From positions 1 through 56,676 of the forward strand of contig CANHNQ010000005.1 of assembly GCA_947462095.1 (NCBI GenBank): a DNA stretch of 56,676 nucleotides, read 5' to 3'. This DNA is from Gemmatimonadota bacterium (GTDB lineage: Bacteria; Gemmatimonadota; Gemmatimonadetes; Gemmatimonadales; Gemmatimonadaceae). Positions 53,689 to 54,090 of this stretch are shown here, piece by piece (the stretch's first letter is position 1; every line of letters begins with the position of its first letter). A program made the position numbers and the translations under genes. A model generated the notes under the pieces. It saw only the letters and a list, made by a program, of their open reading frames with translations, ran no database searches and was not told the origin of the DNA.

Positions 53689-53761
53689 TGCCCCTTAGCT
53701 CAACTGGCAGAGCGTCTGACTCTGGATCAGAAGGTTCCAGGTTCGAAACCTGGAGGGGCAA
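53689..53761 (+). tRNA. tRNA-Gln (CTG anticodon)
   Basis: A 73-nt cloverleaf: acceptor TGCCCCT/AGGGGCA (U1-A72 pair, a glutamine feature), D-arm GCTC/GAGC, anticodon stem TCTGA/TCAGA with loop CTCTGGA (anticodon CTG), T-arm CCAGG/CCTGG with TTCGAAA. Discriminator A73; CCA is not encoded. It reads CAG. An AT-rich TATATT lies about 40 bases upstream and may be its -10 element. It is followed by an intrinsic terminator. Confidence 0.97.
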
Positions 53762-53791
53762 TACAGTAAAGCCTTACAGTTCAAGCACTTA

Positions 53792-53817
53792 GCCTCGGCC
53801 TCGCGCCGGGGCTTTTT
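53792..53817 (+). terminator. intrinsic terminator after tRNA-Gln
   Basis: GCCTCGGC (53792-53799) pairs with GCCGGGGC (53805-53812), with one G-U pair and a 5-base loop, followed by TTTTT (53813-53817). It lies 30 bases after the tRNA. Confidence 0.88.
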
Positions 53818-53904
53818 GCGTGCGGCGGGCGGACCATCGACAGGCATCCGCAACAGGTGCAGACTGTACCCGACCGTGCCACCACAAATCATTCAGGAGG
53901 TACC

Positions 53905-54090
53905 ATGTCCGATTCGTCTGCCCCCGTACGACACGACGACCAGCCGCTCAGCGACGACCAGCTCAGCCAGATCGCCGGCGGGGGGCCCAAGGGAGGGGGA
54001 GGGATGTCTGTCAGCTACCCGTGCGATATCTGCGGTCAGAATTTCACCACACTCGATGCGCTCACGCGGCACCAGACGCCGCATCCGTGA
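53905..54090 (+). CDS. 61-aa peptide: double-glycine leader joined to a C2H2 zinc-finger motif
   Basis: A textbook AGGAGG (53895-53900) sits 4 bases before ATG 53905, one of the few strong ribosome-binding sites in this window. Residues 1-26 are polar and acidic and end in LSDDQLSQIAGG, the L-x3-x-L-x2-I-x-GG pattern of double-glycine leaders of secreted or modified peptides. A Gly/Pro/Lys linker (27-33) follows. Residues 38-60 match the eukaryotic-type C2H2 finger exactly: Y38, C40-x2-C43, F47, L53, H56-x3-H60. No peptidase, exporter or maturase is adjacent. It may be a peptide precursor, a tiny zinc protein, or both; function unknown. Confidence 0.72.
   Translation: MSDSSAPVRHDDQPLSDDQLSQIAGGGPKGGGGMSVSYPCDICGQNFTTLDALTRHQTPHP

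Follow-up and report, generated by a model that had tools for sequence, protein, structure and literature searches.

A Double-Glycine Leader Peptide with a C2H2 Zinc-Finger Core in a Gemmatimonadota Genome and Its Family of Predicted Metal-Ligand Cores

The Peptide Gene and Its Surroundings

The window, i.e., the whole stretch of 56,676 nucleotides analyzed here, is contig C5 of a 3.64 Mb Gemmatimonadota genome (G000) that comprises 215 contigs and is 82% complete. At positions 53905..54090 of the forward strand it carries a gene for a peptide precursor of 61 amino acids, whose translation reads MSDSSAPVRHDDQPLSDDQLSQIAGGGPKGGGGMSVSYPCDICGQNFTTLDALTRHQTPHP and whose start position is kept in relatives. 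An AGGAGG ribosome-binding site (53895..53900, +) lies 4 bases ahead of the ATG. The hexamer occurs 15 times on the two strands of the window, and only two occurrences, that at 53895–53900 included, were scored shortly upstream of a start codon, which makes the initial annotation's description of an exact site that is unusual here a fair one. The upstream neighbor, outside the peptide gene, is a tRNA-Gln (CTG; 53689..53761, +) found by ARAGORN and Rfam (RF00005), followed downstream by a terminator-like hairpin of nine pairs and TTTT (53791..53813, +; one such hairpin found versus 0.4 expected). The terminator said to set the gene apart is hence present, as a terminator-like hairpin between tRNA-Gln and peptide gene, and probably belongs to the tRNA-Gln unit. 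Further upstream, a Uma2-type putative endonuclease gene (PF05685; 52950–53639, +) stands between the tRNA-Gln and a 571-residue ORF that we take to encode glutaminyl-tRNA synthetase. Prophage or plasmid cargo was rejected: the peptide has no match among 72,556 plasmid and 50,697 phage records, none of the 21 stretches of viral contigs that fitted a pattern was confirmed, and the window holds no exact 12-base repeat of the tRNA-Gln downstream of the tRNA.

The Double-Glycine Leader

Residues 1–26 (53905..53982, +) constitute a putative double-glycine leader, assigned by a leader profile and by its −12/−7/−4 positions. Its terminal segment, LSDDQLSQIAGG (residues 15–26), places L15, L20, and I23 at −12, −7, and −4 relative to the predicted cleavage site behind G25 G26, and residues 17–24 are helical in the structural models. 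Hydrophobic residues occupy these three positions in 34 of the 36 leader copies of five genomes, the window leader included; in the LahT structure, as far as excerpts of the paper describe it, residues at such positions fill the groove of the C39 peptidase (PMC6363468). The window leader remains below the curated cut-offs of all four NCBIfam models that it touches, among them the Gram-positive bacteriocin leader model TIGR01847 (12.8 bits, cut-off 15.7), and the window peptide is unmatched by TIGR03793 (NHLP) and TIGR03798 (N11P) at E up to 10. For 23 members of the family described below, TIGR03793 gives a weak match in two (best E 0.082), and TIGR03798 is absent from the matches at E up to 0.1. 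NF038167 (CTB family bacteriocin) weakly matches seven of the 23 (best E 0.0029) and NF046113 (BLP family) three (best E 7.2e-4), with the window peptide unmatched by either at E up to 0.1. These weak matches fit the general kind of GG leader. The leader motif proposed for residues 15–26 is present, and it becomes firm solely through the relatives and the leader profile built on them.

A Single C2H2 Finger behind the Leader

The second element is a C2H2 zinc finger at residues 38–60 (54016..54084, +), indicated by Pfam, by sequence matches in the PDB, and by models with a ββα fold. The full finger consensus read there at the outset holds at every named position (Y38, C40, C43, F47, L53, H56, and H60, with C40, C43, H56, and H60 as predicted ligands), and PF00096 (zf-C2H2) is matched just above its cut-off (25.3 bits versus a gathering score of 25.2; E 1.9e-5), while the peptide scores below the gathering scores of two sister C2H2 Pfam models. 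The strict finger pattern occurs once in the six frames of the window and in none of 40 Markov-simulated windows; a looser C2H2 pattern by itself means little, because its four occurrences face a simulated mean of 1.4. Matches to PDB sequences span residues 37–60, the best being Aart, whose E value of 4.5e-14 adds up six fingers, none of which exceeds 12 bits by itself. Two AlphaFold2 runs, one with five sequences and one with the single sequence, agree on strands at 38–39 and 46–47 and a helix at 50–57; in the five-sequence run the pLDDT reaches 88 for residues 41–50 and 82 for residues 51–60, at a modest overall confidence (mean pLDDT 68.5, pTM 0.33). Judged by their titles, 48 of the 50 Foldseek matches listed, out of 130, are C2H2 fingers; the scores are weak throughout, with 0.44 as the best E value among those listed.

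The sequence and predicted fold of residues 38–60 thus resemble the classic C2H2 fingers of PF00096, Aart, PRDM9, and Zif268. Unlike these, the window finger is single, bacterial, located behind an export leader, and not part of a DNA-binding array. Ros/MucR fingers are likewise bacterial and C2H2-like; they are cytoplasmic DNA-binding proteins, and even with E values up to 10 admitted, their model is absent from the Pfam matches of the window peptide.

Relatives Share the Leader and Differ in the Core

Among 61 genomes (the window's own and 60 relatives), clear relatives of the peptide occur in four further genomes of the genus (E ≤7.2e-8); altogether 40 of the 61 give a match when E values up to 1 are admitted, mostly by chance as we read them. 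The copies in G019 and G026 hardly differ from one another, share about 60% identity with the window protein, and keep both leader and finger, the combination that the initial annotation had asked relatives to show. The relatives in G014 and G023 have the same leader with different cores (CxxC...H...C in G014, Cys-rich in G023), and the similarity of the window DNA to these two genomes stops at 53987 and 53974, respectively, near the leader/core border at 53982. The block homologous to the G019 and G026 copies by blastn (53823..54078, +) comprises about 80 bp upstream and most of the ORF. In all four relatives the gene occupies one shared syntenic place, whereas in the window genome it lies at a different place, to which the ~80 bp of upstream DNA were carried along. 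Across the five members of this subfamily (the four syntenic ones and the window peptide), only C40, D41, C43, and H56 are invariant in the core.

A leader-only profile (A2, 22 rows) run over 30 genomes of the genus separates two groups of matches, one with E up to 0.032 and one with E from 0.158. The first group contains 38 copies in seven genomes (12 each in G000 and G023, nine in G014, two in G026, and one each in G019, G029, and G002), by which a reading as a lone gene was rejected. An earlier profile, A1, contained CxxC; A2 does not, but its rows were drawn partly from A1 and a regular expression. Five copies, outside the A2 rows and an earlier listing, are new through A2: C127e and C395d, both with the ligand set, two chimeras with TonB-receptor fragments, and C289 without ligands. 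Two of the copies, C127e being one, have no recognizable start codon. In a phylum sample of 395 genomes, 12 have a match at E up to 0.003, five of these from the genus; G014 and G023 are not among the 12 and were presumably not drawn. When genome contigs were scanned with the window protein, none of 107 stretches was confirmed, and a scan with alignment A3 confirmed four of 57, namely the contigs of G019, G026, G014, and G023.

Two further observations concern other contigs. In the window genome, contig C49, which bears two of the peptide genes, also has an ORF of near-perfect nine-residue repeats (DAFAAAFKN / DAFQQAMKN; L036:11811–12803, −). In another family of the phylum, G268 has a separate array of five GG peptides with short cores of the CSWSGCSN type (C273, L137:1323–2268, +), which is likely a different peptide cluster.

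Most Cores Keep Four Predicted Cysteine and Histidine Ligands

We counted cores, i.e., the residues after the GG, under two rules: a looser one (at least two Cys and at least four Cys plus His) and an exact one (C2H2 or C3H1). The looser rule covers 33 of the 38 cores, all in five genomes, and the exact rule 25. The five exceptions are the G029 copy with no Cys or His, the G002 copy (C2H0), and three cores of G023: a chimera with a TonB fragment (H4), a C2H1 core, and a ligand-free one. The other TonB chimera counts toward the 33 only because its residue numbers fit. Cys and His make up 5.9% and 5.8% of the core residues of 36 copies in five genomes, compared with 0.75% and 2.4% in 12 long ORFs of the window, and no Cys is found among 1002 leader residues. 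In a non-redundant set of 29 cores drawn from all 38 copies at <50% identity, 24 fall under the looser and 18 under the exact rule, while means of 13.2 and 3.45 result when residues are shuffled among the cores so that the enrichment is preserved; none of 20,000 shuffles reaches either observed value. At a limit of 60% identity, the counts are 28 and 20 of 33 versus shuffle means of 15.3 and 3.9, again reached by none. As controls we took 20 GG peptides from six genomes of other genera in the phylum, leader-like ORFs that were picked by a regular expression in profile-found loci and are not all profile matches: none falls under the looser rule, and one His occurs overall. The underlying comparison set of 23 included three peptides of the genus (one from G029, two from G002) that were left out of the controls; two of these three match the leader profile and are therefore counted as ligand-free copies of the family.

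Four ligand layouts cover 30 of the 38 copies. Layout A (CxxC-x9-13-H-x3-6-H) has seven copies, the window peptide with its CxxC...H...H arrangement included; layout B (CxxC-x6-9-H-x3-4-C, i.e., CxxC...H...C) has four, layout C (C-x1-2-H-x5-6-H-x6-14-C, with extra His in some) 15, and layout D (CxxH-x5-C-x5-6-H, i.e., CxxH...C...H) four. Eight copies fall outside these layouts: besides the five exceptions, they comprise the second chimera and one core each of C2H4 and C6H2 composition. Most cores span 21–57 residues, and once the Cys/His columns are excluded, the mean identity inside a layout is 22–29%. A reading of the group as a finger family was rejected: with E values up to 0.1 admitted, PF00096 matches one of 23 members, and the finger accounts for just one of the four layouts. 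Of the class envisaged in the initial annotation, the coexistence of leader and finger stands; what is kept is the leader plus, mostly, four Cys/His residues, and not the finger as such.

For the pair L158 and L159 from G014 and G023, DNA identity amounts to 78% in the leader, 60% in the core, 89% in the 300 bases downstream, and 72% upstream. Core mismatches are spread evenly over the three codon positions both in this pair (12, 11, 11) and between the window gene and L156 (10, 11, 8). Judging by the region identities of L158 and L159, the core appears to evolve fastest while its ligands persist, the counts coming from short gapped alignments without a formal selection test.

The composition of the cores bears on how they might be held in shape. 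Two cysteines could pair outside the cell with no metal involved, the enrichment of His having another origin; each of the 33 ligand-bearing cores has at least two Cys (as part of the counting rule), and export brings a peptide to an oxidizing place. His is nevertheless enriched like Cys, its spacings in the four layouts are narrow, a CxxC pair, as in layouts A and B, makes a poor structural disulfide, and the window core has the textbook form of a zinc finger. We therefore regard a disulfide as very unlikely and prefer a metal ion as the element that would hold the core.

The cores also qualify what the leader does. The leader can do without a ligand core, since five of the 38 copies have no ligand set. 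The ligand-free copies of G029 and G002 match the leader profile well (E 5.5e-7 and 7.6e-9), and because such cores stand behind matching leaders, the leader may be a general export tag, with the metal-ligand core as the speciality of one genome group.

An NHLM-Type Export Locus in Sister Genomes

Three NHLM genes share a contig with a leader peptide in G026 and in G014, and all exceed the NCBIfam cut-offs: the C39 ABC1 subunit (TIGR03796; 1073.7 bits in G026 and 1051 in G014, cut-off 853.3), ABC2 (TIGR03797; 912.9 and 912.1 bits, cut-off 709.4), and HlyD (TIGR03794; 331.3 and 326.1 bits, cut-off 156.2). The C39 and HlyD genes are located immediately upstream of ABC2, and as its neighbors the locus also carries genes for a substrate-binding protein, a permease, an ATPase, and a further protein whose OB-fold match stays below cut-off. 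In the window genome, contig C127 starts inside ABC2 (C127:3–2381, 922 bits, above the cut-off) and continues with the same neighbors, five leader copies, and the start of a TonB receptor (CarboxypepD_reg and Plug). Neither the C39 subunit nor HlyD turned up in this 82% complete assembly, and the region upstream of ABC2 falls past the end of C127. G023 has the same neighbors and four leader copies on C395, and a different contig of this genome ends in a C39 match. No HlyD was found in G023, and neither C39 nor HlyD in G019. For the C39 exporter that the initial annotation proposed to look for elsewhere in the genome, the picture is mixed: NHLM/C39 genes stand near sister peptides in G026 and G014 and ABC2 is present here, but the C39 gene was not found in the window genome, whose gene at 53905..54090 does not itself adjoin an exporter.

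On C127 and C395 (L091:6977–10090 in G000 and L152:1–1500 in G023), the peptide genes are interleaved with fragments that resemble TonB-receptor starts and the OB-fold-like protein, some of them joined to leaders; these fragments may be traces of a recombination that reshuffles cores. A separate observation concerns G014, where a leader with a CxxH...H...C core is fused in frame to an intein-like domain (C648, L104:5338–6201, −) that begins at a Cys and ends in ...LLSHNK. The domain matches NF038136 (E 8.1e-8), TIGR01445 (0.008), and TIGR01443 (0.027), all below cut-off, and has no Pfam match at 0.001; it may form part of a self-splicing or self-cleaving precursor of an exported peptide.

With the export locus at hand, the possibility of an ordinary intracellular zinc protein, such as a regulator, can be judged. 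C2H2 fingers bind DNA in eukaryotes, as do Ros/MucR proteins in bacteria, and the leader-like N-terminus would then be coincidental. It is, however, the leader rather than the finger that is conserved across copies, sister peptides lie at the export locus, no Ros/MucR model appears among the Pfam matches, and the protein's only finger spans 23 residues and is poor in basic ones (two Lys/Arg in the 35-residue core). We hold this reading to be extremely improbable and proceed with that of an exported peptide.

No Modifying Enzyme Seen at the Export Locus

The initial annotation had considered a modified peptide, and we searched for maturases of four families in five genomes of 80–93% completeness. 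LANC_like and MNIO (PF05114) proteins are found in none of the five. YcaO occurs in one, G023, as a domain of a 713-residue ORF (C341, L160; 213 bits), and no GG-leader peptide of the family was recognized on the 3.9 kb around it. Radical-SAM proteins with a SPASM domain are present in three of the five and adjoin a sulfatase-like gene; on inspection, without a family search, they read as sulfatase maturases. No modifying enzyme was seen among the ORFs of the export locus. On this search of four families in five genomes, a maturase partner was rejected, and modification of the peptide is disfavored.

What would remain of a modified RiPP is a peptide whose Cys residues are altered by an enzyme encoded elsewhere, as with the scattered prochlorosin genes, the Cys/His pattern reflecting the preference of that enzyme. 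A GG leader, an NHLM exporter, and scattered hypervariable copies are typical of RiPP precursors in the account given in parts of PMC2887384, the incompleteness of the five assemblies leaves room for such a gene, and one YcaO gene does exist. Besides the search results, the retention of His tells against it, as these enzymes do not account for that. We rate this explanation as quite unlikely and continue with an unmodified peptide.

Proposed Working and Role of the Peptide

Taken together, the window gene probably encodes an exported, GG-cleaved, unmodified mini-protein that is held by one metal ion and may have a microcin-like or signaling role. The leader family, the conservation of the ligands, and the exporter locus of the relatives are legible in the sequences; from them we infer cleavage, export, zinc binding, lack of modification, and a role as follows. 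The 26-residue leader would be recognized by an NHLM-type peptidase-containing ABC transporter and cut after Gly26, releasing a peptide of ~35 residues outside the cell (predicted residues 27–61, 53983..54087, +, by the GG motif and the NHLM exporter), which consists of a Gly-rich linker and the finger. Type I exporters move unfolded peptides, and for this reason the metal would have to bind outside. There, C40, C43, H56, and H60 would bind one zinc ion and the chain would adopt the ββα finger fold, such that the metal would replace the disulfide, thioether, or heterocycle crosslinks of known GG-leader peptides. The window gene is one of twelve found scattered in the genome that combine one leader type with fast-changing cores, mostly with four Cys/His ligands in one of the four layouts. 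Because cores diversify behind a constant leader in many copies, secreted microcin-like or signaling peptides are the most likely role, although for this step alone our assignment is tentative.

The main rival for the role is metal scavenging, because a TonB receptor or its fragments adjoin the array in two genomes: ribosomal metallophores would be exported free, bind zinc (or copper), and be re-imported through the receptor at the side of the array, so that the ligands alone would need keeping and the remainder would drift. In its favor one can point to the receptor start that follows the peptides on C127 and its fragments among the G023 peptides, to the even distribution of core mismatches over codon positions, and to the solute-binding and permease genes of the same locus; moreover, among the four relatives that have names, two bear isolate names (BENA-tail, AMD-out) that we read as pointing to tailings or acid drainage. 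The names of the other two suggest no mine sites, though, and the peptide of G026 is followed by a gene that reads as an epimerase and by no TonB receptor. TonB receptors are common in the group, a peptide of 35 residues per ion is costly, and the four layouts together with the kept hydrophobic core of the finger (F47, L53) suggest that a folded shape matters. Scavenging therefore appears unlikely, if clearly less so than a disulfide or a modified RiPP, and we retain the microcin-like or signaling role as the preferred one.

Relation to Known Systems and Significance

Thioethers, disulfides, and heterocycles are the known means of stabilizing GG-leader peptides. The present family shares a GG leader and, judging by the locus of G026 and G014, a C39 peptidase transporter with class II bacteriocins and microcins (colicin V; NF038167, NF046113). 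These rely on disulfides or an amphipathic helix, and the present family differs from them by its predicted metal-ligand core. The closest described machinery is that of the NHLP/Nif11 precursors and the NHLM export system, reported in 2010 (Haft 2010, PMC2887384). As far as excerpts of that paper go, the two have in common hypervariable cores behind a GG cleavage motif of the ELSDEELEAVAGG type, a large number of precursors in each genome, and the transporter families TIGR03794/03796/03797. The present family differs in its leader of 23–39 residues, in the window peptide's lack of a match to the NHLP/Nif11 models, in the four Cys/His residues that most cores conserve, and in that no maturase partner was found. 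Prochlorosins, in the portions of PMC10783134 and PMC6363468 available, are scattered precursors served by one enzyme and show the same conserved leader, scattered genes, and very diverse cores; here, a LanC-like protein is found in none of the five genomes, and the cores have fixed counts of Cys plus His. Bufferins, described in parts of PMC12452194 as MNIO-modified copper-binding RiPPs, are likewise small ribosomal metal-binding peptides (binding being predicted here), whereas our five genomes have no MNIO and the leader is of the GG type. In the one open-access library that was covered, we found no account of a GG-leader zinc-finger peptide family, and the accessible part of PMC8692599 has nothing on it.

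The peptides may be described as a variant of exporter-cleaved GG-leader peptides, with a new class as a possibility if metal binding holds. That class would be one in which NHLM exporters deliver unmodified, metal-structured mini-proteins. A single leader type would precede any of four Cys/His layouts that can stand in for one another, a secreted finger of eukaryotic style among them, and the surface between the ligands would be free to evolve, which makes it a natural display scaffold; on the present evidence we put this forward as a conjecture that could well fail. The family lends itself directly to testing, as its cores are short and cheap to synthesize, come in four layouts, and can be set against ligand-free peptides of sister genomes as controls. 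Peptide mining based on maturases would probably miss such genes. If the proposed working is true, metal ions would be a further means of holding a secreted peptide in shape, and a C2H2 finger of the eukaryotic type would have a place in bacterial secretion, beyond gene regulation.
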